DNA from: Formosa sp. Hel3_A1_48
Lineage (GTDB): Bacteria > Bacteroidota > Bacteroidia > Flavobacteriales > Flavobacteriaceae
Direction of reading: 5' to 3'
Assembly: GCF_001735715.1 (NCBI RefSeq)
Contig: NZ_CP017259.1
Location: 989,501 to 1,053,500, forward strand
DNA length: 64,000 nt
Positions 1,306 to 53,792 of this stretch are shown piece by piece. Within the stretch, counting starts at the first letter, position 1. Each line of letters begins with the position of its first letter. A program made the position numbers and the translations under genes. The notes beneath the pieces are model-generated. The model was not told the origin of the DNA. It saw only the letters and a program-made list of their open reading frames with translations, and did not search any database.

Positions 1306-1383
1306 TTACACATACAAGACCTCGACTCTTTTTTCAAAAAAGAAATAATACCAGTTGTAGAATGTATAATATATATTGTGCAT
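1306..1383 (-). CDS. Phenylalanine/tyrosine-rich leader peptide (attenuation)
   Basis: A 25-codon reading frame, ATG at 1383 and TAA ending at 1306, encoding MHNIYYTFYNWYYFFFEKRV plus EVLYV. It contains four Phe (three consecutive, codons 14-16), six Tyr and one Trp. This composition is that of a control peptide for aromatic amino acid supply. The Phe run lies five to six codons before GTCGAG (codons 20-21, 1326-1321), the putative antiterminator arm. A ribosome stalled on Phe codons would leave that arm free to pair with CTCGAT (1278-1273) and break the terminator. A ribosome reaching the stop codon would cover the arm and allow termination. This is the first gene of the pheA transcript by position. 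Confidence 0.88.
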   Translation of the reverse strand: MHNIYYTFYNWYYFFFEKRVEVLYV

Positions 1384-3482: not shown

Positions 3483-3495
3483 CAGCATTACTAAA

Positions 3496-3563
3496 CGAGG
3501 ATAAATTTGATCTGATTGCAACCTCAAAAAAAAAAGCTAAAACAGTGCCAATCCCTTTAGCTT
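3496..3563 (+). promoter_or_regulatory. SAM-II-type riboswitch upstream of metK
   Basis: GAGG (3497-3500) pairs with CCTC (3522-3525) to form P1. The enclosed loop ends TGATTGCAA, the conserved SAM-II loop sequence. An A-rich linker leads to GCTAAAAC (3536-3543), the other conserved strand. CTG (3512-3514) can pair with CAG (3543-3545) to make the pseudoknot helix, where the well-studied metX example has CC pairing with GG. This is a compensatory change that supports the fold. Downstream, TTTAGCTT (3556-3563) is perfectly complementary to AAGCTAAA (3534-3541), so ligand-bound and unbound states can be mutually exclusive. The position directly before metK fits SAM feedback. Confidence 0.8.
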
Positions 3564-3596: not shown

Positions 3597-4853
3597 ATGA
3601 GTTACTTATTTACTTCCGAAAGTGTTTCTGAAGGACACCCCGATAAAGTAGCAGACCAAATTAGCGATGCAATCATCGACCATTTTTTGGCCTTCGATCC
3701 GCAAGCCAAAGTGGCTTGTGAAACATTGGTGACTACCGGGCAAGTTATTTTGGCTGGTGAGGTCAAATCTAAAACCTATTTGGACGTACAACAGATCGCT
3801 CGAGACACAATAAATAAAATTGGTTATACCAAAGGCGAATACATGTTTGACGGGAATTCATGCGGAGTTCTCTCAGCCATACACGAACAATCGGAGGACA
3901 TAAATAGAGGAGTTGATAGAGAAACCCCTGAAGAACAAGGGGCTGGTGACCAAGGTATGATGTTTGGTTACGCCACCAATGAAACCGAAAACTACATGCC
4001 TTTAGCATTGGATTTGTCGCACCGTATTTTAAAAGAACTTGCTGCTTTGCGCCACGCAAACAAAGACATCACTTATTTGCGTCCTGACTCTAAAAGTCAG
4101 GTCACTATTGAATATGGTGATGACAATGTCCCGTTGCGGATTGATTCTATTGTAATCTCTACACAACATGACGACTTTTCTGATGATGAAAATGAAATGC
4201 TTGATACGATCAAAAAAGACATCAAGGCCATTTTGATTCCTAGAGTAATCTCAAAATTACCTAAGGCCATTCAAGCACTTTTTAATGATAATATTACGTA
4301 TCACATCAATCCAACAGGCAAGTTTGTAATTGGCGGCCCTCACGGAGATACCGGATTGACTGGCCGTAAAATTATAGTAGACACCTACGGCGGAAAAGGC
4401 GCACATGGTGGAGGTGCATTTTCGGGAAAAGACCCAAGTAAAGTAGACCGCTCTGCGGCTTATGCCATGCGCCATATTGCCAAAAATATGGTTGCTGCAG
4501 GAATATGTTCAGAAATTTTAGTACAAGTCAGTTATGCCATTGGCGTAGCCGAACCTACGGGTGTTTTTGTAGATACTTACGGCACAGCCAATGTGGAACT
4601 CAACGATGGTACTGTTGCACAAAAAATAATGGAGCTATTTGACCTGCGACCAGCGGCAATTGAGCAACGACTAAAACTTCGTACCCCAATGTACAGCGAA
4701 ACTGCTGCTTATGGTCATATGGGGCGTACAAACGAAACTGTTGAAAAAGTATTTTATCTACCCAATGGTGAAAAACAAGTGTTGGATGTAGAACTGTTTA
4801 CGTGGGAAAAATTAGATTATATAGAAGCAATTAAAACTGCTTTCAAGCTCTAA
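3597..4853 (+). CDS. metK: S-adenosylmethionine synthetase
   Basis: 418 residues. The enzyme makes SAM from methionine and ATP in the cytosol. Conserved motifs are GHPDK (13-17), [12 protein letters not shown] (115-126), [13 protein letters not shown] (246-258) and the glycine-rich P-loop-like [19 protein letters not shown] (271-289). The length agrees with Bacteroidota MetK, which is longer than the 384-residue E. coli enzyme because of insertions in the middle domain. The ATG at 3597 lies 34 bases after the alternative hairpin of the SAM-II riboswitch. Repression by SAM is the expected logic. The gene is monocistronic, ending at a strong bidirectional terminator. Confidence 0.97.
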
Positions 4854-43851: not shown

Positions 43852-44532
43852 ATGAAACTCAGATTTATATTGAGCATTGGCCTTCTTTTTTGGGGGTCAA
43901 TGTTTGTTAAAGCTCAAACCGACACTGGAAATTGGCTGATGTATTTTGGCACTAATAAAGTCAGTGAAAAATTCAGTATTCACACAGAAGCTCAATACAG
44001 AAATCATACCATTAGCCCTACAAATATAGAACAGCTATTGCTTCGTACTGGGCTAAATTACCATTTCAGGCCCAACGCATCGGCAACTTTTGGTTACGCA
44101 CATATTGGCAACTATGAATACGACTCTGAAAGGAAAAGTCCAGAAGTTGAAGAGCATCGTATATGGCAACAGTTTTTGACCACCAATACCATTGGTCGGG
44201 TAAAACTGGAACATCGTTATCGGCTGGAAGAACGTTTTGTAGAAGATGATTTCAAAATGCGCTTTCGCTATCGATTAATGGTTTTTATACCTCTAAATCG
44301 TCCTAAAATAGAAGCGGGAGCTCTATACTTAGGTATTTATGATGAGCTATTCATAAATGATAAACGGAATTTTTTTGATCGCAACCGATTGTACGGAGGA
44401 TTAGGCTACCAATATGCAAACAACATACACTTTCAAGTAGGTCTATTGCGCCAAGAAGTACAAACTACTGCCAAAACATTTTTGCAGTTTGGCTTGATTT
44501 TTAATACAGACTTAAGAAATACTAAGAATTAA
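43852..44532 (+). CDS. DUF2490 family outer-membrane protein
   Basis: 226 residues. A signal peptide (MKLRFILSIGLLFWGSMFVKAQ) precedes a beta-barrel-like chain with WLMYFGTNKVSEKFSIHTEA, RYRLEERFVEDDFKMRFRYR and FLQFGLIFNTDLRN, features of DUF2490. The family has no established biochemical role. It starts three bases after the carbonic anhydrase stop, so it belongs to that operon. A passive outer-membrane route for small anions would fit the context but is inference. The stop overlaps the convergent argH stop by four bases. Confidence 0.82.
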   Translation: MKLRFILSIGLLFWGSMFVKAQTDTGNWLMYFGTNKVSEKFSIHTEAQYRNHTISPTNIEQLLLRTGLNYHFRPNASATFGYAHIGNYEYDSERKSPEVEEHRIWQQFLTTNTIGRVKLEHRYRLEERFVEDDFKMRFRYRLMVFIPLNRPKIEAGALYLGIYDELFINDKRNFFDRNRLYGGLGYQYANNIHFQVGLLRQEVQTTAKTFLQFGLIFNTDLRNTKN

Positions 44533-45809
44533 TTTAATTTTGGAAACTTGGCTTTGATTTTGTTCAAAGCCAAGTTATCTATACCGCCAATATGCTTGTG
44601 TTTATGTCGTGTACCGCATGCATAAGATCCGTCTTGAACTTGTGCCCCAATAGTTTGGTAAGCTTCCCTAAACGTCGCGCCATTTTGTACCAGTGAATTG
44701 ATGCTGTCTACAGTAAATAAATACTTATACTTATCATCATCCAAATTCACGGATTTAACTTCAATCTGTTTCAGTCCATAATCAAAAATAGACAATACTG
44801 TTTTTAGTGTCTCAAAAGCTGAAATCATTGGCGATTTTAATAATTGAAAATCCCGATGGTAGCCGCTTGGTAAATTGTTTGTCATCAATTGTATTTGAGA
44901 CGACAATCCTTGTAAGCCATTACATTTCGAACGTATTAATTCAAACACATCTGGATTTTTTTTGTGCGGCATGATGCTACTCCCTGTTGTAAGCTCTTCT
45001 GGAAAGCTGATAAAATCAAAATTTTGACTCATGTACAAGCAGATATCCATTGCAAACTTGGAAAGAGTAAATGCTAGGTTTCCTAAACTCGATGCAATTA
45101 TTTGTTCGTTTTTCCCTCTTGACATTTGAGCAGATACAACATTGTATTTTAAATCTGAAAAATTCAGTAATTCTGTTGTCATCTCACGATCAATTGGGAA
45201 GGAGCTCCCATAGCCAGCTGCAGAACCTAATGGATTTTGATCCACAACTTTTTGTGCTGATTGAAGCACTATAACATCGTCAATAAGAGATTCGGCATAA
45301 GCCGAAAACCAAAGCCCAAAAGACGATGGCATAGCCACTTGAAGATGCGTATAACCAGGCAATAATTCTGACTTATGTTGTTCTGCTAAATTCAATAATG
45401 TATCAAACAAGACTTTAACTTGCTTTTGAATGCTTTTCAAATTATCTTTATAATACAACTGCAAAGCCACCAAAACTTGATCATTTCTTGAGCGTGCAGT
45501 ATGTATTTTTTTTCCAGCAGTGCCAATACGCTGGGTTAGCTCGTGCTCAATTTTAGAGTGAACATCCTCAAACTGATTTTCGATTTTAAAAATACCGCGC
45601 TTTTCTTCTTCTAAAAGTTTGCCGATAGCGCGCTCAACTTGTTCAAGCTCACCCTTGTCTAAAATTCCAATATGGGCTAACATTTTGGCATGTGCAAGGG
45701 AGGCTTGTAAATCGTACTTAGCAATATACAAGTCAATGTCTCGATCATCTCCAACCGTAAACGCTTCAATAGTTTTATCAATAGATACTCCTTTGTCCCA
45801 AAGTTTCAT
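44529..45809 (-). CDS. argH: Argininosuccinate lyase
   Basis: 426 residues. It splits argininosuccinate to arginine and fumarate, the last step of arginine synthesis. The superfamily signature GSSIMPHKKNPD (276-287) includes catalytic Ser277. His155 (GYTHLQVAMP) and HTARSRNDQV (103-112) are also present. It is some 30 residues shorter than E. coli ArgH, missing mainly C-terminal sequence, but all active-site regions are intact. It is the final gene of the arginine operon, three bases after the deacylase gene. Confidence 0.95.
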   Translation of the reverse strand: MKLWDKGVSIDKTIEAFTVGDDRDIDLYIAKYDLQASLAHAKMLAHIGILDKGELEQVERAIGKLLEEEKRGIFKIENQFEDVHSKIEHELTQRIGTAGKKIHTARSRNDQVLVALQLYYKDNLKSIQKQVKVLFDTLLNLAEQHKSELLPGYTHLQVAMPSSFGLWFSAYAESLIDDVIVLQSAQKVVDQNPLGSAAGYGSSFPIDREMTTELLNFSDLKYNVVSAQMSRGKNEQIIASSLGNLAFTLSKFAMDICLYMSQNFDFISFPEELTTGSSIMPHKKNPDVFELIRSKCNGLQGLSSQIQLMTNNLPSGYHRDFQLLKSPMISAFETLKTVLSIFDYGLKQIEVKSVNLDDDKYKYLFTVDSINSLVQNGATFREAYQTIGAQVQDGSYACGTRHKHKHIGGIDNLALNKIKAKFPKLN

Positions 45810-45812
45810 AGA

Positions 45813-46880
45813 TTATAGTATTTTATTTAATAATTGGATATATAATGCAATCCCTTCTTCAATTTCATGTACGTAAATAAACTCATCAGCTGTGTGCGAT
45901 CGAGTACTGTCTCCAGGGCCTAACTTCAGTGAATGACAACTCAACACCGCCTGATCTGAAAGAGTTGGCGAACCGTATGTTTCTCTCCCCAACTCAATCC
46001 CCGCCTGGACTAACGGGTGGTTTTTAGAAATACTAGAGGAATTTAAATTTGTACTTCGCGCTGTTACTTTTGCATTTGGCAAATGCTCTTGTAGGAGAGC
46101 TACAATTTGAGCATTAGAATAACAATCGTTCACGCGCACATCTACCACCATAACAACCTTTGCTGGAACGGCATTATGTTGCTGACCCGCATTAATTTGT
46201 GTCAGTGTCATCTTTACACGGCCCAAAGCCTCAGATTCTTGTTCAAATTGATAGGTCTTTATCCATTCCATCACTGGAATGGCATTGTATAGTGCGTTGT
46301 TCTCATTGGGGTGAGCGGCATGACTCGGCGTTCCTGATACCTCAACATCAAAAACCACCAAACCTTTTTCGGCAACTGCCAAATGCATTTGAGTAGGCTC
46401 ACCAACTATAGCTACATCAATTTTTGGAACAATGCTAAGCATAGAATTGAGGCCATTTGGCCCACTACTTTCTTCTTCTGCTGAGCCCACGAAAACCAAG
46501 TTATAAGCCAATGAATCCCGATCATAAAAATAAGTAAAGGTTGCTAAAAGTGACACCAAACACCCCCCTGCATCGTTACTCCCAAGACCATAAAGCTTGC
46601 CATCTTCAATATGTGCATCAAAAGGGTTTTTAGTGTACCCACTGTTTGGTTTCACGGTATCATGATGAGAATTGAGCAAAAGTGTGGGTTTTGCTGTATC
46701 AAAAGATTTATTAGTTGCCCAAACGTTATTTTGATAGCGATTGTATGGGATTTCGAACCTTTGAAACCATCGTTCCAAAAGCAAGGCCGTTGGGTCTTCT
46801 TCAGATGAAAATGAAGGCGTTTCTATCAAGTTCTTTAATAATTTAATAGCCGACTGAGTAAGAGTGTCTATGGTTATCAT
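45813..46880 (-). CDS. argE: M20 family acyl-ornithine deacylase (ArgE-like)
   Basis: 355 residues. It hydrolyses N-acyl-ornithine to ornithine, or N-acyl-citrulline to citrulline in pathways with acyl-ornithine carbamoyltransferase. In this operon acyl-citrulline is the logical substrate. Metal ligands of the M20 fold are visible: His73 and Asp74 (NSHHDTVKPN), Asp103 (GLGSNDAGG), and the Glu135-Glu136 pair with catalytic Glu (GSAEEESSGPNG). The dimerisation domain spans about 170-280. The start overlaps argB by four bases. Whether the acyl group is acetyl or succinyl cannot be told. Confidence 0.88.
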   Translation of the reverse strand: MITIDTLTQSAIKLLKNLIETPSFSSEEDPTALLLERWFQRFEIPYNRYQNNVWATNKSFDTAKPTLLLNSHHDTVKPNSGYTKNPFDAHIEDGKLYGLGSNDAGGCLVSLLATFTYFYDRDSLAYNLVFVGSAEEESSGPNGLNSMLSIVPKIDVAIVGEPTQMHLAVAEKGLVVFDVEVSGTPSHAAHPNENNALYNAIPVMEWIKTYQFEQESEALGRVKMTLTQINAGQQHNAVPAKVVMVVDVRVNDCYSNAQIVALLQEHLPNAKVTARSTNLNSSSISKNHPLVQAGIELGRETYGSPTLSDQAVLSCHSLKLGPGDSTRSHTADEFIYVHEIEEGIALYIQLLNKIL

Positions 46881-47656
46881 AGTGTTAAAGTTGTGTAGTT
46901 GTTAGAATCCCCCGAAAGCATACTTGGCTGACCAATACATACCCTCGAAACCTGATGTTGTAAAGCTTCAAAGCAATTTTGTAATTTTGGCAACATTCCG
47001 TCTGTAACTAATCCTGATTTTACAAGTTCATCATATATCGGCTTATCTATTGCTTTTATTAATGAATTTTCATCATTCTTGTCTTTTAAAACTCCTTGTT
47101 TTTCAAAACAGTAATATAATGTAACATCAAAAATATCGGCTAGAGATTTTGCTATTGAAGCGGCAATAGTGTCTGCATTGGTGTTGAGTAATTGTCCTTT
47201 TTTATTGTGCGTAATAGCAGAAAAAACTGGCGTTAATCCTGCACTTAACAACATTGAAATATAGTCCGAATTTACATTTTGAATATCCCCCACAAATCCA
47301 TAATCAACATCCAAAACAGGCCGTTTTACAGATTGAATAGAATTAGCATCAGCTCCAGAGCAACCTATAGCGTTACACCCCAGCGCTTGTAGCTGAGCTA
47401 CTATCGAAGTGTTTATTTTTCCAGCATAAACCATAGTGATTACTTCAAGAGTATTAACATCTGTAATACGCCGTCCATCCACCATTTGAACCTCTAATTG
47501 CATTTTTTTTGATAATTCTGTCGCTGATTTCCCACCACCATGTACCAATAGTTTAGATCCATCAATAGCAGCAAATTGAGACAAAAATGAATTTTTGGCT
47601 TCAGGATCATCTAAAATATGACCTCCTATTTTTACAATACTTAGTGACTGTTTCAT
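46877..47656 (-). CDS. argB: N-acyl-glutamate kinase
   Basis: 259 residues of the amino acid kinase family. It phosphorylates N-acetyl- or N-succinyl-glutamate. KIGGHILDD (11-19) and LLVHGGGKSATELSKKM form the ATP and substrate loops. GCSGADANSIQSV and LLNTNADTIAASIAKSLAD are typical ArgB segments. No N-terminal helix of the hexameric arginine-inhibited type is present, so direct arginine inhibition is doubtful. Feedback could instead act at the leader peptide. It overlaps both neighbours by four bases. Confidence 0.93.
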   Translation of the reverse strand: MKQSLSIVKIGGHILDDPEAKNSFLSQFAAIDGSKLLVHGGGKSATELSKKMQLEVQMVDGRRITDVNTLEVITMVYAGKINTSIVAQLQALGCNAIGCSGADANSIQSVKRPVLDVDYGFVGDIQNVNSDYISMLLSAGLTPVFSAITHNKKGQLLNTNADTIAASIAKSLADIFDVTLYYCFEKQGVLKDKNDENSLIKAIDKPIYDELVKSGLVTDGMLPKLQNCFEALQHQVSRVCIGQPSMLSGDSNNYTTLTL

Positions 47657-48588
47657 AATGATTCTAAAATTTGTTTCAACACAATTTGAGCAGCAAAAGT
47701 TCGGTTATTAGATTGGTCGATGCATAAAGACTTTGGGCTATCAAGTACAGCGTCCTCTACCACAACGTTTCGTCGGACTGGAAGGCAATGCATAAATTTA
47801 GCTTTGCCAATTTTCTCTTCTGTAATCATCCAATTTGATTTTGGTTTTAGAATTTTTCCATAATCAGTAAAACAGCTCCAGTTTTTGGCGTAAATAAAAT
47901 CAGCATTTTTAAAAGCTTCTATTTGGTTATTGGATACAGCTGTGTGTTTTACAATTGATGGATCCAAATCATAGCCTTCAGGATGAACTATACTAAAATC
48001 CACATCTTGAAGCTGCATGGTCCGCACAAAAGAATTGGCAACTGCATGCGGTAAAGCTTTTGGATGTGGGGCCCATGAAAGCACAACCTTTGGCTTGATT
48101 TTATCACTTTGCTCTGCAATGGTAATGGCATCCGCTAAACCTTGCAAAGGATGAGCTGTAGCGCTTTCCATATTGATTAGAGGAACTGATGCATAAGCAG
48201 CAAAGGCATTCAAAACCCACTCGGACTGATCCTTGACCTTGTCTGTCAAAGTTGGAAATGCTCTTACACCAATAATGGTGGCGTATTGAGAAATGACTTG
48301 AGCGGCCTCTTTTATATGTTCCGAAGACTGTAAGTCCATAACCGCACCTTCTTCAAACTCTAATTGCCATGCGTCATTGACATTCAAAACAATGACACTC
48401 ATTCCCAAATTTTTAGCTGCCAACTCTGTGCTTATTCGCGTTCTTAAACTTGCATTAAAAAACAATAAGACTAAAGTCTTTTGAGTACCGAGACTACTGT
48501 ACGCATATGGATTGGCTTTTAGTGCAAGGGCATCTTGAACGGTTTTGTTCAAATCTTTAATACTTTTGATGTTTAAAAAGTGATTCAT
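47653..48588 (-). CDS. argF: N-acyl-ornithine carbamoyltransferase
   Basis: 311 residues. It transfers carbamoyl from carbamoyl phosphate to an N-acylated ornithine. The carbamoyl-phosphate motif reads SLRTR (47-51), as in N-acetyl- and N-succinyl-ornithine carbamoyltransferases; ordinary ornithine enzymes have STRTR. GVRAFPTLTDK (107-117) and NMESATAHPLQGLADA (139-154) are also of this subgroup, and the C-terminal loop MHCLPVRRNVVVED closes the site. Bacteroides uses succinyl and Xanthomonas acetyl substrates. The specificity here is undecided. It overlaps argB and argD genes by four bases. Confidence 0.9.
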   Translation of the reverse strand: MNHFLNIKSIKDLNKTVQDALALKANPYAYSSLGTQKTLVLLFFNASLRTRISTELAAKNLGMSVIVLNVNDAWQLEFEEGAVMDLQSSEHIKEAAQVISQYATIIGVRAFPTLTDKVKDQSEWVLNAFAAYASVPLINMESATAHPLQGLADAITIAEQSDKIKPKVVLSWAPHPKALPHAVANSFVRTMQLQDVDFSIVHPEGYDLDPSIVKHTAVSNNQIEAFKNADFIYAKNWSCFTDYGKILKPKSNWMITEEKIGKAKFMHCLPVRRNVVVEDAVLDSPKSLCIDQSNNRTFAAQIVLKQILESL

Positions 48589-49709
48589 AATTCTTGTTTT
48601 AGAGCGCTGAAAAAAGTATCGATATGTTCCTTTTTGATCGTTAAAGGAGGTAAAATGCGTATTAAATTTGGGTTTTTGGAACTTCCTGTAAATATCCTGT
48701 GGTTAAACAGCAGTGATTTCCTTAATTGAGCAACCGGGAATTCAAATTCCAATCCGAGCATCAAACCTCTACCCTTAAGTTGAACAATTTGAGGAATATC
48801 TTTGACAAGTTGCCTAAAATAGAGCTCCATTTGTTGTGCATTATTCATCAAATTTTGACCCTTTAACACGTCTAAAACACTAAGAGTAGCCGCACAGGCC
48901 AAGTGATTTCCTCCAAAGGTTGTTCCTAAAAGTCCGTAAGACGCTTCGATCTCTGGATGAATCAAAATACCCCCGACTGGAAATCCGTTGCCCATACCTT
49001 TGGCCATAGAAATAATATGCGGGGTAATACCATGTTTTTGAAAAGCAAAAAAATCTCCGCTTCGGCCAAAACCAGATTGCACCTCATCGGCAATGAGTAC
49101 AGCACCATAAGTTTTACAAAGCATTTCTAGTCCTTGACAAAACGCTGTAGTAGTTTGATCTAACCCACCTACTCCTTGAATACATTCAATAATAACAGCA
49201 CAGGTTTCTCCTTTTTTAAGCGTGTTCTCTACCGCCTCCAAATCCCCTAATGGATGAAAATCTACTTTTTGCTGTGCATTAAGTGGTGCTATAATATTTG
49301 TATTGTCCGTGCTCGCTACTGCTGCAGAGGTCCGCCCATGAAAAGAATTTTCAAAGGCAATAATGGATGCTTTGTTGGTATGAAATGAGGCTAACTTTAA
49401 AGCATTTTCATTGGCCTCTGCCCCCGAACTACACAGAAATAATTCGTAATTTTGACATCCAGAATCTATGGCCAATTCTTTGGCCAATTCAATTTGTAAT
49501 GGGTTTTTAACCGCATTACTATAAAAACCAATTTGGTTCAGCTGTTGAGTTATGCTCTCAACATATTTAGGATGAGCATGCCCAATAGAAATCACAGCAT
49601 GACCGCCGTAGAGATCCAAATATTGTGTGTCTTGATCATCAAAAACATAGACATCTCTTGCACGAACTGGCGTTACATCAAATAATGGATAAACATCAAA
49701 TAATTTCAT
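48585..49709 (-). CDS. argD: Acyl-ornithine aminotransferase
   Basis: 374 residues, class III PLP aminotransferase. It converts N-acyl-glutamate semialdehyde to N-acyl-ornithine. Lys237 in SMAKGMGNGFPVGG binds PLP, and ADEVQSGFGRSG (207-218) carries the cofactor Asp208. SSGAEANENALKLA (94-107) binds phosphate. The short length, about 30 residues below E. coli ArgD, is usual in Bacteroidota. It overlaps proC and the carbamoyltransferase gene by four bases each, showing tight translational coupling through the operon core. Confidence 0.93.
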   Translation of the reverse strand: MKLFDVYPLFDVTPVRARDVYVFDDQDTQYLDLYGGHAVISIGHAHPKYVESITQQLNQIGFYSNAVKNPLQIELAKELAIDSGCQNYELFLCSSGAEANENALKLASFHTNKASIIAFENSFHGRTSAAVASTDNTNIIAPLNAQQKVDFHPLGDLEAVENTLKKGETCAVIIECIQGVGGLDQTTTAFCQGLEMLCKTYGAVLIADEVQSGFGRSGDFFAFQKHGITPHIISMAKGMGNGFPVGGILIHPEIEASYGLLGTTFGGNHLACAATLSVLDVLKGQNLMNNAQQMELYFRQLVKDIPQIVQLKGRGLMLGLEFEFPVAQLRKSLLFNHRIFTGSSKNPNLIRILPPLTIKKEHIDTFFSALKQEL

Positions 49710-50506
49710 ACTTGATTGGTTTTTATAGCATTAATTTTCTGAAATGAAGCTACCATTCCTTGAATCAAAGAAGAGCTTAAACCCTTGTGTTCCATTTCAT
49801 TCAATCCTTCAATAGTACAGCCCATTGGTGTGGTCACTTTATCTATTTCTTCTTCGGGGTGATGTCCATTTTGTATCAAGAGTTGCGCTGCGCCTTCACT
49901 GGTATGCATAGCCAAGCGTTGCGCTTCTTTAGCATCAAAGCCCAATTGAATAGCGGCTTGAGTTGTGGCACGAATCAAGCGCATCCAAAAAGCAATACCG
50001 CTAGCACACACTACTGTTGCGGCTTGCATTTGCTCTTCCGGAATACAAATTGTTGCTCCAAGTCTATTGAAAATAGCTTCGGCAACAGATAATCTTGATT
50101 TGCCTGTTTGATTACTGCACAAGCAGGTCATGGATTTACCAACAGCAATAGCTGTGTTAGGCATCGCTCTTATGATGTAATTTTGAGCACCAACTATACT
50201 TTCTATTTTAGAAATAGAAAATCCGGTTATAGTCGAAATCACAATGTGCTTTTCTGTAAGATGTGACGCAATTGATTCTAAAATAGATTGTAAATGCGCG
50301 GGCTGAACAGCAAAAATCAGAATATCAGAATTCTGTACAGCTTTGCTATTGTCCGCCGTTAGATGAACATTCTTGTAGCCTTCAAACTCTTGCAGTGCTT
50401 CTAGCCCTCTTCGCGTTAAATATAAAGATGTAATGGCGTTGTTGATAATAAGCCCTTTAGCAATCGAGCGCCCTAGGTTACCTGTTCCAATAATTGCTAT
50501 TTTCAT
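49706..50506 (-). CDS. proC: Pyrroline-5-carboxylate reductase
   Basis: 266 residues. It reduces pyrroline-5-carboxylate to proline with NAD(P)H. IGTGNLGRSIAKGL (6-19) is the dinucleotide-binding loop. RAMPNTAIAVGKSMTCLCSN and the C-terminal VTTPMGCTIEGLNEMEHKGL are family signatures. Its presence inside an arginine operon joins the two glutamate-derived pathways. Pyrroline-5-carboxylate can also form from ornithine through glutamate semialdehyde. It overlaps the upstream mini-SET gene and argD by four bases each. Confidence 0.93.
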   Translation of the reverse strand: MKIAIIGTGNLGRSIAKGLIINNAITSLYLTRRGLEALQEFEGYKNVHLTADNSKAVQNSDILIFAVQPAHLQSILESIASHLTEKHIVISTITGFSISKIESIVGAQNYIIRAMPNTAIAVGKSMTCLCSNQTGKSRLSVAEAIFNRLGATICIPEEQMQAATVVCASGIAFWMRLIRATTQAAIQLGFDAKEAQRLAMHTSEGAAQLLIQNGHHPEEEIDKVTTPMGCTIEGLNEMEHKGLSSSLIQGMVASFQKINAIKTNQV

Positions 50507-50796
50507 AGTTTATAAAGTGTATAATTGAGTGTTAATTCTTCTCCTTTTGAAATTGATCTAATTGTTTTCACAAATCTGTCTTCGCTTATGAAAATTGTCT
50601 CCAAATTTGGAGCTTCTGAATGATTAATAAAACCCCCTAACGGTGTTCTTATAAAACCATTTTCAAATCGATTGTCACGAACATGTGAAATACCTAAAAT
50701 TACCCCCTTCTTGATATCCTCAGAAGCGAATAAGCCCAAACCTTCTATTTTTGATTTGGCAATTGTAAGCTCTTTTGGTAGTGGTCTGTAAGTCAT
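50503..50796 (-). CDS. Minimal SET-domain protein within the arginine operon
   Basis: 97 residues. Only a compact SET core is present. KSKIEGLGLFASEDIKKG (14-31) is the SET N-terminal strand. GGFINHSEAPN (54-64) has the NHS SAM-binding motif, and KGEELTLNYTLY (84-95) has the catalytic-tyrosine segment. No pre-SET or post-SET domain is present. Such proteins are lysine methyltransferases in eukaryotes and some bacteria. A target here is unknown. The gene lies two bases after argC and overlaps proC by four, so it is a genuine member of the operon. Methylation of an operon product or ribosomal protein would be guesswork. Confidence 0.85.
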   Translation of the reverse strand: MTYRPLPKELTIAKSKIEGLGLFASEDIKKGVILGISHVRDNRFENGFIRTPLGGFINHSEAPNLETIFISEDRFVKTIRSISKGEELTLNYTLYKL

Positions 50797-50798
50797 GA

Positions 50799-51776
50799 TT
50801 AGAAATAGCTTGCTTTGAGTTTTAGTCCTGTTTTTTCTTCAATTCCAAACATCAAATTCATGTTTTGAATAGCTTGGCCTGAAGCGCCTTTTAAAAGATT
50901 ATCGATAGCACTAGTTATGAGTAGTTTATTGTTGTATTTCGTAAGATGAAGTATACATTTATTGGTGTTTACCGCCTGCTTGAGATGGACTTCATTTTCA
51001 GAAATAATGGTGAAAGGTGCATCTTTATAAAAAGACTGATAAAGCGATTGAATGGTCTCTAAGCTTTCATCAAGTTCTAAGTATAAGGTCGCAAAAATTC
51101 CACGAGAAAAATTCCCTCTATTTGGAATAAAGTTTAGCGCAGAATCAAACTCTTTTTGTAGTGAAACTAAAGACTCTTTAATTTCCCCTAGATGTTGATG
51201 CCCAAAGGCTTTGTAGTACGAAAAATTATTATCACGCCATGTATAATGAGTTGTGGCGGAAAGTTTTGTTCCAGCACCTGTAGCGCCTGTAACAGCGTTG
51301 ATATGTACTGGGTTTTGAATCAAATGATGAGCTGCCAACGGCAATAGCGCCAGCTGAATCGCTGTTGCAAAACAGCCAGGATTAGCAATATAATTAGCCT
51401 TTATTATCTCCTTTTTATTTAATTCGGGCAGCCCGTATATAAATTGTTTAGCTTGAAAATTAGCTGAAGTTTTTAACCTAAAATCATGACTCAAGTCTAT
51501 GATTTTTGTACAACTTGAAAACTCATGGGCCTCTAAAAACGCTTTTGAATTACCATGCCCTAAACACAAAAACAAAACGTCTATATTTGGATTTATTTGA
51601 TCTGAAAACTGTATAGAAGTTTCGCCTAACAAATCTTGATGAATAGCACTCAATAGTCGCCCCGCACTTGATGTGCTGTACACAAAATTTATGACAGCTT
51701 TTGGGTGATTTAACAACAATCGTATTAGCTCACCAGCAGTGTATCCTGCTCCACCAATTATTCCAACTTGTATCAT
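50799..51776 (-). CDS. argC: N-acyl-gamma-glutamyl-phosphate reductase
   Basis: 325 residues. It reduces acyl-glutamyl phosphate to the semialdehyde with NADPH. GIIGGAGYTAGELIRLLLNHP (5-25) is the dinucleotide-binding start. The catalytic Cys135 sits in NPGCFATAIQLALL, and FYGLP-like FIYGLPELN (112-120) is present. The catalytic His region is GRGIFAT-like NFSRGIFATLYLEL. It follows argG with a four-base overlap and precedes the mini-SET gene. The length is slightly below E. coli ArgC. Confidence 0.94.
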   Translation of the reverse strand: MIQVGIIGGAGYTAGELIRLLLNHPKAVINFVYSTSSAGRLLSAIHQDLLGETSIQFSDQINPNIDVLFLCLGHGNSKAFLEAHEFSSCTKIIDLSHDFRLKTSANFQAKQFIYGLPELNKKEIIKANYIANPGCFATAIQLALLPLAAHHLIQNPVHINAVTGATGAGTKLSATTHYTWRDNNFSYYKAFGHQHLGEIKESLVSLQKEFDSALNFIPNRGNFSRGIFATLYLELDESLETIQSLYQSFYKDAPFTIISENEVHLKQAVNTNKCILHLTKYNNKLLITSAIDNLLKGASGQAIQNMNLMFGIEEKTGLKLKASYF

Positions 51777-52969
51777 GATTTTGAATTTAAATTTTGAATA
51801 ATTTTATTTTGATTGGCCGTTATTTTTATAAATCCTTTCGCATCGTCGGCAGTCCATGCAGTATTCATTTCGCCATAGCTTGCAAAATTAGAGTTCATTA
51901 AGTCATAATCAGATGTAATACCCTCTATTGTAAAATGATAAGGCTTCAAAACAACGGTGACATCTCCACTAACACTAGCCTGACTGGATTGAAAAAATGC
52001 TTCCATATCACGCAGCACAGGATCAAGGTATTGACCCTCATGAAGATGCATCCCATAGTAACTAGCCATACTGTCTTTGTGTTGCAGTTGCCATTTGGAA
52101 AGGGTGTGTTTTTCTAACAAATGATGGGCTTTGATGATGATCAGAGCTGCAGCAGCTTCAAAACCAACACGGCCTTTGATACCCACTATGGTATCGCCAA
52201 CATGAATGTCTCTGCCAATGGCGTATGCTGATGCTAGTTCATTAAGCATTTGAATATTGACAACCGGAGTGTTTTCTACATCATCTACAGCGACTAATTC
52301 TCCCTTTTGAAAACTAAGTTTCACCAAAGTTTGTGCGTTGTTTTTGAGTGGAGAAGGGTAAGCTTCTTCTGGCAAAGCCAAGTGAGATGTCAAGGTTTCA
52401 TCACCGCCTACACTCGTCCCCCAAAGGCCTTTATTAATAGAATATTTAGCTTTATCCCAAGCCAAGTCAACCCCCTTAGATTTTAAATACGTGATTTCAT
52501 CTTCCCTACTTAATTTATTATCACGAATAGGGGTGATAATTTCAATTTCTGGTGCCAAGGTTTGAAAAATCATATCAAAACGCACTTGATCGTTTCCTGC
52601 TCCTGTGCTTCCGTGTGCAATGTATTTAGCGTTTATAGATTTGGCATAGGTTACTATTTCTATGGCTTGGATTATGCGCTCAGCACTGACGGAAAGTGGA
52701 TAGGTATTATTTTTGAGAACATTTCCAAAAATTAAATACTTAACAACTTTTTGATAAAATTGCTCTGTGGCTTGAATATTTTTGTAGGCAAACGCACCCA
52801 TTTTATAGGCTTTTACCTTAATGGATTCAATTTCATTTTTAGTGAAACCCCCTGTATTTACACTAACGGCATGAACCTCATAACCAAGATCTTGTGACAG
52901 ATGTACTGCACAATAAGAGGTATCCAAGCCGCCACTGTAGGCCAAAACTAATCTGTGTTTAGAATTCAT
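51773..52969 (-). CDS. argG: Argininosuccinate synthase
   Basis: 398 residues. It condenses citrulline and aspartate with ATP. The PP-loop SGGLDTS (12-18) is intact. Other synthase segments are AHGSTGAGNDQVRFDM and WGTSVGGDETL. The chain is close in size to other ArgG enzymes. It is the second gene of the operon, one base after the GNAT gene. In most bacteria argG lies near argH, whereas here they bracket the operon. The start ATG at 52969 is supported by the coupling to the GNAT stop. Confidence 0.95.
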   Translation of the reverse strand: MNSKHRLVLAYSGGLDTSYCAVHLSQDLGYEVHAVSVNTGGFTKNEIESIKVKAYKMGAFAYKNIQATEQFYQKVVKYLIFGNVLKNNTYPLSVSAERIIQAIEIVTYAKSINAKYIAHGSTGAGNDQVRFDMIFQTLAPEIEIITPIRDNKLSREDEITYLKSKGVDLAWDKAKYSINKGLWGTSVGGDETLTSHLALPEEAYPSPLKNNAQTLVKLSFQKGELVAVDDVENTPVVNIQMLNELASAYAIGRDIHVGDTIVGIKGRVGFEAAAALIIIKAHHLLEKHTLSKWQLQHKDSMASYYGMHLHEGQYLDPVLRDMEAFFQSSQASVSGDVTVVLKPYHFTIEGITSDYDLMNSNFASYGEMNTAWTADDAKGFIKITANQNKIIQNLNSKS

Positions 52970-52970
52970 T

Positions 52971-53582
52971 TTATTGTTTTTTAAGAAAAAGAGTTTGTTT
53001 AATACTTTTTAAGCGTTTAAAAGTTGAAGTCTTAATTTTTTTTGGACGTTTCTTTTTTTGCTGTTTTGGATCGAACAACATTCCGGTGCACAAGCACATT
53101 GATTGCTCAGTACGCTGTAAAACATCATAATTTTTACAAGTTTGACAGCCCTTCCAAAAAGACGGCTCCTTAGTCAACTCAGAGAAGGTCACAGGTTTGT
53201 ACCCCAAATCCGTATTAAGTTTCATCACGGCCAGCCCTGTGGTAATGCTAAACACCTTTGCTTTTGGGTATTTAGTTCTAGAGTGATCGAATACCAATTG
53301 TTTGATTTTTTTTGCTAATCCCTGGTTTCTATAATCAGGATGTACAATTAGACCAGAATTGGCTACAAATCGCTGGTGGTCCCAAGTTTCGATGTAACAA
53401 AATCCAGCAAATTTATCCCCATCTAACGCAATAACTGCATCACCTTGATCCATCTTTTTACAAATGTATTCGGGAGAGCGCTTGGCAATACCTGTACCTC
53501 TGACTTGTGCAGCAGATTCAATAGTGGCACAAATAACTTGTGCATAAATATGATGTGATTTATCTGTGATAACTAGTTTCAT
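52971..53582 (-). CDS. GNAT acyltransferase heading the arginine operon (candidate acyl-glutamate synthase)
   Basis: 203 residues. The GNAT fold is shown by VIALDGDKFAGFCYIETW and the acyl-CoA loop YRNQGLAKKIKQL (84-96). Cys146, Cys149, Cys163 and Cys165 (GCQTCK and MCLCTGM) form a likely metal-binding knuckle. The C-terminus (about 175-203) is strongly basic (KKKRPKKIKTSTFKRLKSIK), unusual for a small-molecule enzyme. Position as first gene, and absence of argA or argJ in the operon, suggest it acylates glutamate with acetyl- or succinyl-CoA. It follows the arginine leader peptide. Confidence 0.82.
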   Translation of the reverse strand: MKLVITDKSHHIYAQVICATIESAAQVRGTGIAKRSPEYICKKMDQGDAVIALDGDKFAGFCYIETWDHQRFVANSGLIVHPDYRNQGLAKKIKQLVFDHSRTKYPKAKVFSITTGLAVMKLNTDLGYKPVTFSELTKEPSFWKGCQTCKNYDVLQRTEQSMCLCTGMLFDPKQQKKKRPKKIKTSTFKRLKSIKQTLFLKKQ

Positions 53583-53610: not shown

Positions 53611-53652
53611 TAAAGAAAATTGAAAAGGAAGAACCGGACTCACCTAAGTTCC
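53611..53652 (-). terminator. Weak terminator-like hairpin after the arginine leader peptide
   Basis: On the minus strand GGAAC (53652-53648) pairs with GTTCT (53634-53630), with inner pairs around a TGAGT loop and a 2-base bulge. TCCTTTTCAATTTTCTTT follows, a T-rich but interrupted tail. It is weaker than the pheA terminator. An alternative antiterminator was not resolved by eye. Confidence 0.45.
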
Positions 53653-53670
53653 AAAAATTATAAATACACC

Positions 53671-53766
53671 CTAAGGGCGACGACGGTAGTGACGCGGACA
53701 CAATGGAGCACTACTCGGTAGAGTTAGTGAACAAATGTTTGATAGTAAAAACTTTGTGTCAATCAT
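53671..53766 (-). CDS. Arginine-rich leader peptide (attenuation)
   Basis: A 31-codon frame, ATG at 53766 and TAG ending at 53671. It starts MIDTKFLLSNICS and ends LCPRHYRRRP. Four Arg codons (CGT, CGT, CGT, CGC) fall in the last seven sense codons, three of them consecutive, a pattern expected of a peptide that senses Arg-tRNA supply. The gene after it is the first of the arginine operon, 88 bases on. A probable -7 box lies 19 bases upstream. A stall at the Arg run would change folding of the following RNA, whose hairpin (53630-53652) is the candidate switch. Confidence 0.82.
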   Translation of the reverse strand: MIDTKFLLSNICSLTLPSSAPLCPRHYRRRP

Positions 53767-53784
53767 GATAATTTTATAACGGGG

Positions 53785-53792
53785 TAAAACTA
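53785..53792 (-). promoter_or_regulatory. Probable -7 box of the arginine operon
   Basis: The minus strand reads TAGTTTTA, one mismatch to TAnnTTTG. A start near 53779 would place the leader ATG about 13 bases into the message, as for the pheA leader. Confidence 0.45.

Follow-up and report, generated by a model that had tools for sequence, protein, structure and literature searches.

A short open reading frame (ORF) with conserved arginine codons precedes the ten-gene arginine (arg) operon in the window, i.e., the whole 64,000-nucleotide stretch of Formosa sp. Hel3_A1_48 DNA analyzed here. It was shown that this Arg-codon ORF is conserved and linked to the arg operon, that three RNA hairpins (denoted P1, P2, and P3) form a conserved architecture, and that the repressor ArgR is lacking. 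The element is very likely (probability of approximately 0.8) a regulatory leader of the operon, in which tRNA-Arg would be sensed through the position of the ribosome; its translation, the stalling, the direction of the response, and the output are inferred, and no expression data are available. A widespread arginine leader-peptide regulator in place of ArgR is also very likely, for which the conversion of ribosome position into operon output was not shown. In one Bacteroidota class, most sampled families lack ArgR and have an Arg-codon leader preceding this operon, and the leader explains how a large and ecologically important group could control arginine.

Arginine Codons of the Leader ORF

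The leader ORF (53671-53766, minus strand) consists of 31 codons and encodes MIDTKFLLSNICSLTLPSSAPLCPRHYRRRP, which ends with PRHYRRRP immediately before the stop codon. The run CGT CAC TAC CGT CGT CGC (53677-53694, minus strand), supported by position-specific Arg conservation, contains the four Arg codons of the ORF (53692-53694, 53683-53685, 53680-53682, and 53677-53679). A predicted Bacteroidota-type −7 promoter element, TAGTTTTA (53785-53792, minus strand), was assigned by its match to TAnnTTTG and lies 18 nt 5′ of the leader ATG, the start site itself being only predicted. An TTTATAGTTTTAC-like string was also located 5′ of the first leader peptide in relatives. The leader stop codon is separated by 88 nt from the start of the first operon gene, which encodes a GNAT acetyltransferase (52971-53582, minus strand; Pfam PF00583), likely an acetylglutamate synthase as inferred from the operon context. 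The remaining genes are argG, argC, a SET-domain gene, proC, argD, argF′, argB, argE, and argH (44529-52969, minus strand), and the whole operon spans 53582 down to 44529 on this strand. The argF′ product is an N-acetylornithine-type carbamoyltransferase, and that of argE is an argE-like deacylase. The SET-domain gene located between argC and proC encodes 97 amino acids (50503-50796, minus strand). The C-terminal segment of the GNAT protein is Cys-rich (CQTCKNYDVL...CLCTG), and its tail is Lys-rich; the protein might conceivably bind a nucleic acid such as P3.

For comparison, 110 loci containing the same GNAT gene, nearly all from Flavobacteriaceae, were gathered, and 88 non-redundant leaders were used. 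The sampled genera include Winogradskyella, Polaribacter, Tenacibaculum, Arenibacter, Salegentibacter, and Gelidibacter. Nearly all 110 loci exhibited an Arg-rich frame ending at a conserved CGYCGCCC(stop)GGGTG, followed by GGAAC..AGGTGNGTCC..GTTCC. Arg was located at codon 0 (the last residue before P/T) in 88/88 leaders and at codon −1 in 78/88, while codons −6 and −5 were each Arg in 44/88, a pattern observed only in the peptide frame and absent from the other two. The alignment was anchored at the CGC of P2, so that the 88/88 at codon 0 is partly built in; codons −1, −2, −5, and −6 are unaffected. The median stop-free run upstream was 41 codons for the peptide frame versus 16 and 11 for the other frames of the 88 leaders. 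A chance origin of the leader ORF is excluded because both the frame and the Arg residues are conserved in these 88 non-redundant sequences. The peptide is mostly about 26–31 codons long where a start (ATG, TTG, or GTG) can be assigned, and it terminates with RRP-stop in most Flavobacteriaceae, with residues outside the Arg positions varying widely. The Pro-stop end is missing in Salegentibacter, Polaribacter, and some Tenacibaculum types (RRTFVRV and RRPLGV before the stop). The distance from the last Arg codon to the P3 core was 33–36 nt in 84/88 leaders, a constancy that may come partly from shared ancestry.

A second Arg-rich short peptide (e.g., MLIMKNKIRPSSPAMVLRRRCAF) was observed 5′ of the first one in up to 64/88 Flavobacteriaceae leaders, in most cases immediately behind the promoter; in 50 of those 64, a T-rich tract lies no more than 75 nt beyond this peptide. 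In these tandem leaders (L006, L012, L045, L091, and about 60 more), the upstream peptide (e.g., MLSQKNRIERPTSLLLNRRRR) is located mostly 180–220 nt 5′ of the last Arg codon. The 64 include a few ends of upstream genes, which are not leaders. The window genus is without the extra peptide, and its RRRP-ending peptide lies directly after the promoter. Another genus (g115; leaders L177, L178, and L179) has a different conserved peptide, MNKxSLHITSLSRT..P.TSPEVRxL, which uses CGG Arg codons, does not end with RRP, and is located before the same GNAT gene.

Hairpins P1, P2, and P3

P1 (CACTAACTC-TACC-GAGTAGTG; 53709-53729, minus strand) is located inside the ORF upstream of the Arg codons, and its base-pair probabilities were 0.97–0.99 for most pairs. 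Its position is conserved in the family, and it gave the strongest covariation signal (z = −13.3) in a pairing scan using 14-nt windows with sequences permuted between species. P2 (CGCCC-TTA-GGGTG; 53667-53679, minus strand) is formed around the stop codon, which is placed in its loop, and at least four of its five pairs are kept in 84/88 leaders. The Salegentibacter-type P2 is CGCAC/GTGCG, a compensated double change from C-G to A-U, and P2 is kept in some species although the stop codon is shifted past the hairpin. P3 (GGAAC-TTA-GG-TGAGT-CC-G-GTTCT; 53630-53652, minus strand) is composed of a 6-bp outer stem, a bulge of 1–3 nt whose last nucleotide is A, two G-C pairs, and the near-invariant loop UGNGU, which was found in 87/88 leaders. 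A mean of 5.85 of the 6 outer pairs is formed, compared with 5.27 when the arms were shuffled (maximum 5.42, 500 shuffles), and these pairs vary across leaders as CG/AT/TG/TA and GC/GT/AT/TA. They were counted in register; RNAalifold applied to a MAFFT alignment missed the outer stem owing to the variable bulge. The distance between P3 and the first start codon, that of the GNAT gene, is variable and amounts to about 50 nt or more; the hairpin is followed not by a regular U-tract but by a G-poor, pyrimidine-rich stretch with a C:G ratio of about 4. It constitutes an added conserved hairpin whose binding partner is unidentified.

When the family leaders were scanned for long-range covariation linking the peptide region to P3 or downstream structures, only weak A/T-rich signals were obtained. 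A duplex between the Arg codons and the loop and 3′ arm of P3 was predicted at −12.7 to −13.4 kcal/mol in the window genus, with less stable values of −5.4 to −11.1 in the other genera shown; this helix does not covary (z = −1.5). When the P3 motif was searched for in the own genome with one mismatch allowed, only chance-like matches were found besides the arg copy. A role of P3 as a mimic of the tRNA-Arg anticodon or codon was considered and rejected: UACGY, UUCGY, and UCCGU loops fit it, but the Flavobacteriaceae UGAGU/UGUGU does not.

These results can be set against the first-pass annotation, made from the sequence alone. Its claim of an Arg-rich 31-codon leader before a ten-gene arg operon held, with the coordinates and the four Arg codons confirmed. 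It had named a lack of peptide conservation in relatives as a refuting outcome, and this test was passed, since the RRP-ending peptide is conserved and the hairpins covary. Its description of the downstream hairpin as weak held for the single sequence, as the fold of the whole leader was unremarkable (z = −0.58); the comparison instead reveals three conserved hairpins.

Distribution of the Leader and of ArgR

Arginine operons of bacteria are normally under the control of ArgR. A covariance model built on P2 and P3 detected the element in 122/199 Flavobacteriaceae genomes, with no more than one strong copy per genome, and matched 3/247 genomes in a class-wide sample, all three being Flavobacteriaceae. 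The element was present in 49/52 compared Flavobacteriaceae genomes that contain the GNAT gene, gave zero matches in genomes without the gene, and was located directly upstream of it wherever both positions were known. A search for ArgR (PF01316) found none in the own genome, with 9/14 control genomes positive, and no convincing ArgR was detected across Flavobacteriaceae, where there was one weak partial match only. The upstream regions of the related gene carA, which is located elsewhere, exhibited no clear Arg leader in the genomes checked. ArgR controls arginine genes, as is proposed for the arg leader, and argR (HTH motif TQATLSRDL/I) was the immediate 5′ neighbor of this GNAT gene in six of the six ArgR-bearing loci examined in class-mates. 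A swap between repressor and ribosome sensor is directly testable, as argR fills the same slot in these loci.

Beyond the family, we analyzed 88 loci in 31 groups (30 further families and three divergent Flavobacteriaceae), all without an adjacent ArgR. Short ORFs within 420 nt 5′ of the GNAT gene were collected, and all 20 residues were scored with dinucleotide shuffles and the opposite strand as references. Arg was the only enriched residue, with 18.25 family-equivalents observed versus 4.28 expected (z = 12). At least three Arg were present in the last 12 codons at 55/88 loci, and this was the case for at least half of the loci in 23/31 groups; a few of the 55 Arg-rich loci are expected by chance according to the shuffles. 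Examples of such peptides, each given up to its stop codon, are ARRPFGRRPARV, PVRRRRYFFRV, LPVRPIFYIRR, and APVRPAFFSRRA, and further non-Pro endings are SRVPFFPRR and LRRNRFTFRV. Because the Arg cluster is the only feature they share, the peptides of the other families are best read as leader peptides. A CC-UACGY-GG pentaloop hairpin was found at the P3 position in several other families (6.1 family-equivalents versus 0.26 expected); this pattern was picked after viewing the sequences, so that the test is descriptive only. Neither a leader nor a convincing ArgR was detected in three families (f5, f21, and f31). A pentaloop hairpin of the form CC-UACGY/UAUGC/UUCGC-GG was observed after the Arg peptide in leaders L191, L211, L218, L204, L219, L242, L187, and L181, which belong to several families. 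The first-pass annotation had pointed to ArgR as the usual regulator; the own genome without ArgR and a family without a convincing one support the leader reading, and its scope was too modest, as the leader system is class-wide.

Proposed Mechanism, Alternatives, and Known Systems

In the proposed mechanism, a ribosome would follow RNA polymerase closely while translating the short peptide. Under a shortage of charged tRNA-Arg, the ribosome would slow down or stall at the Arg codons near the ORF end, while with plentiful arginine it would reach the stop codon in the P2 loop. The position of the ribosome would determine the folding or masking of P1, P2, and the adjoining downstream mRNA with P3, and thereby set operon expression, which would be high under arginine scarcity. 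The output step is inferred to be early termination of transcription or decay of the mRNA, and not translation of the first gene. The large and variable distance of P3 from the first start codon, the lack of a regular U-tract, and the G-poor, pyrimidine-rich tail favor, only weakly, an output by Rho or by decay over sequestration of the ribosome-binding site. It is likewise an inference that P3 probably acts neither as a simple terminator nor as a mask of the GNAT ribosome-binding region. Whether the output is transcriptional or translational remains undecided, as had been said from the outset. Points weighing against the main reading are the varying start codons (ATG, TTG, and GTG), the lack of support for a classical antiterminator/terminator pair or for covarying alternative pairings, and the families in which neither a leader nor a convincing ArgR was detected. 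In a bolder reading, which is possible but less likely than not, arginine control throughout the class would employ a stop-codon hairpin together with a recognized pentaloop hairpin and no terminator, replacing ArgR, with P3 bound in trans. The pentaloops would be UGNGU in Flavobacteriaceae and UACGY-like in several other families, and conceivable binders of P3 include the Rho-associated machinery, nucleases, and proteins related to tRNA-Arg. If this bolder reading is true, it represents a new output device for the sensing of ribosome position.

Among the alternatives, classical intrinsic attenuation survives best, and it remains possible while being less well supported than the main reading. 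It assumes that P2 or P3 is a terminator and that the helix between the Arg codons and P3 is the antiterminator. In its favor, the Arg codons can pair with the loop and 3′ arm of P3 in the window genus, an A/T-rich stretch follows P2, which scores as terminator-like (a weak match), and a real terminator exists in the pheA leader of the same window. Against it, P2 has five pairs with the stop codon in its loop, P3 is without a consistent U-tract, and the Arg:P3 helix is predicted to be less stable outside the window genus and does not covary. Nascent-peptide arrest, modeled on TnaC with tryptophan or on the fungal arginine attenuator peptide, assumes that free arginine causes the finished RRP-stop peptide to arrest the ribosome at the stop codon. 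TnaC likewise has Pro before its stop codon. This explanation is supported by the RRP-stop end in most Flavobacteriaceae and by the near-constant length of 26–31 codons where the start is assignable. It cannot be dismissed but is unlikely: non-Arg residues vary widely, Pro-stop is missing in several genera and families, and runs of Arg codons suit the sensing of tRNA-Arg. A structured RNA, either a riboswitch-like aptamer or protein-binding P2/P3, would make the RRP peptide a by-product of the P2 sequence CGTCGCCC. The nearly invariant P3 loop and the conservation of P2 even without the stop codon speak for it. We consider it very unlikely, as Arg codons are conserved outside P2 too (−6 and −5 are Arg in 44/88, in frame 0 only), the P2 variant GCAC/GTGC instead of GCCC/GGGT still keeps them, and Arg-rich peptides persist in families with other hairpins. 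The view that the ORF product is a small functional protein without a part in regulation, as the conserved frame might suggest, is all but excluded by the poor conservation outside Arg, by unrelated peptides across families that share the Arg cluster only, and by the tandem unrelated Arg peptides in up to 64/88 leaders.

The nearest experimentally studied parallel to the tRNA-Arg-sensing leader proposed here is orf34 of Salmonella speF, a 34-codon leader ORF that senses arginine by means of consecutive Arg codons (PMC6386406). The position of the ribosome on orf34 controls a hairpin after the stop codon, RNase G decay, and Rho termination, and Arg codons 12–13 matter while the stop-adjacent Arg does not (PMC6386406). 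However, orf34 controls ornithine decarboxylase in gamma-proteobacteria, whereas the arg leader precedes arginine synthesis, has its Arg cluster at the end, and differs in sequence and structure. The hallmark of orf34/SpeFL (DUF2618 core, HIRRT, location before speF; PMC6386406) was not met, as the peptides and the downstream gene differ by inspection. The attenuators of trp, his, phe, leu, and thr share with the arg leader a short ORF with a run of end-product codons directly before the operon, a criterion that is met here. An intrinsic terminator after the ORF was not found, since P2 and P3 do not form a regular GC-rich stem with a U-tract across Flavobacteriaceae. The arg leader differs from the classical attenuators in that it shows no classical terminator and no antiterminator supported by covariation, has its stop codon inside P2, and carries the extra conserved P3.

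Leader-peptide attenuation before amino-acid operons was reported for Flavobacterium psychrophilum of the same phylum in a paper whose main text describes no arginine leader (PMC9723704). Bacteroid-trp RNA (Rfam RF01692; PMC2864571) is a cis-regulatory RNA candidate in Bacteroidetes. Neither the window leader nor 20 relatives matched any Rfam family at the gathering score. The literature searched, which was open-access only, contained no description of an arginine leader peptide from Bacteroidota, so that a report elsewhere is possible.

The first-pass annotation had also described the arg leader as mirroring the pheA leader, which held in part: the peptide is promoter-adjacent in both, but the output structure is not the same, as the arg leader has no classical terminator. 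The pheA leader encodes the peptide MHNIYYTFYNWYYFFFEKRVEVLYV (1306-1383, minus strand), followed by a canonical intrinsic terminator, TCTCGATGTAAATATCGAGATTTTTTTTT (1251-1279), directly before pheA. It represents a classical attenuator in the same genome and is usable as a positive control. A SAM-II riboswitch (Rfam RF01726, 59.9 bits) was also observed in the window at 3491-3550 (plus strand), just before an ORF at 3597 that resembles S-adenosylmethionine synthetase.
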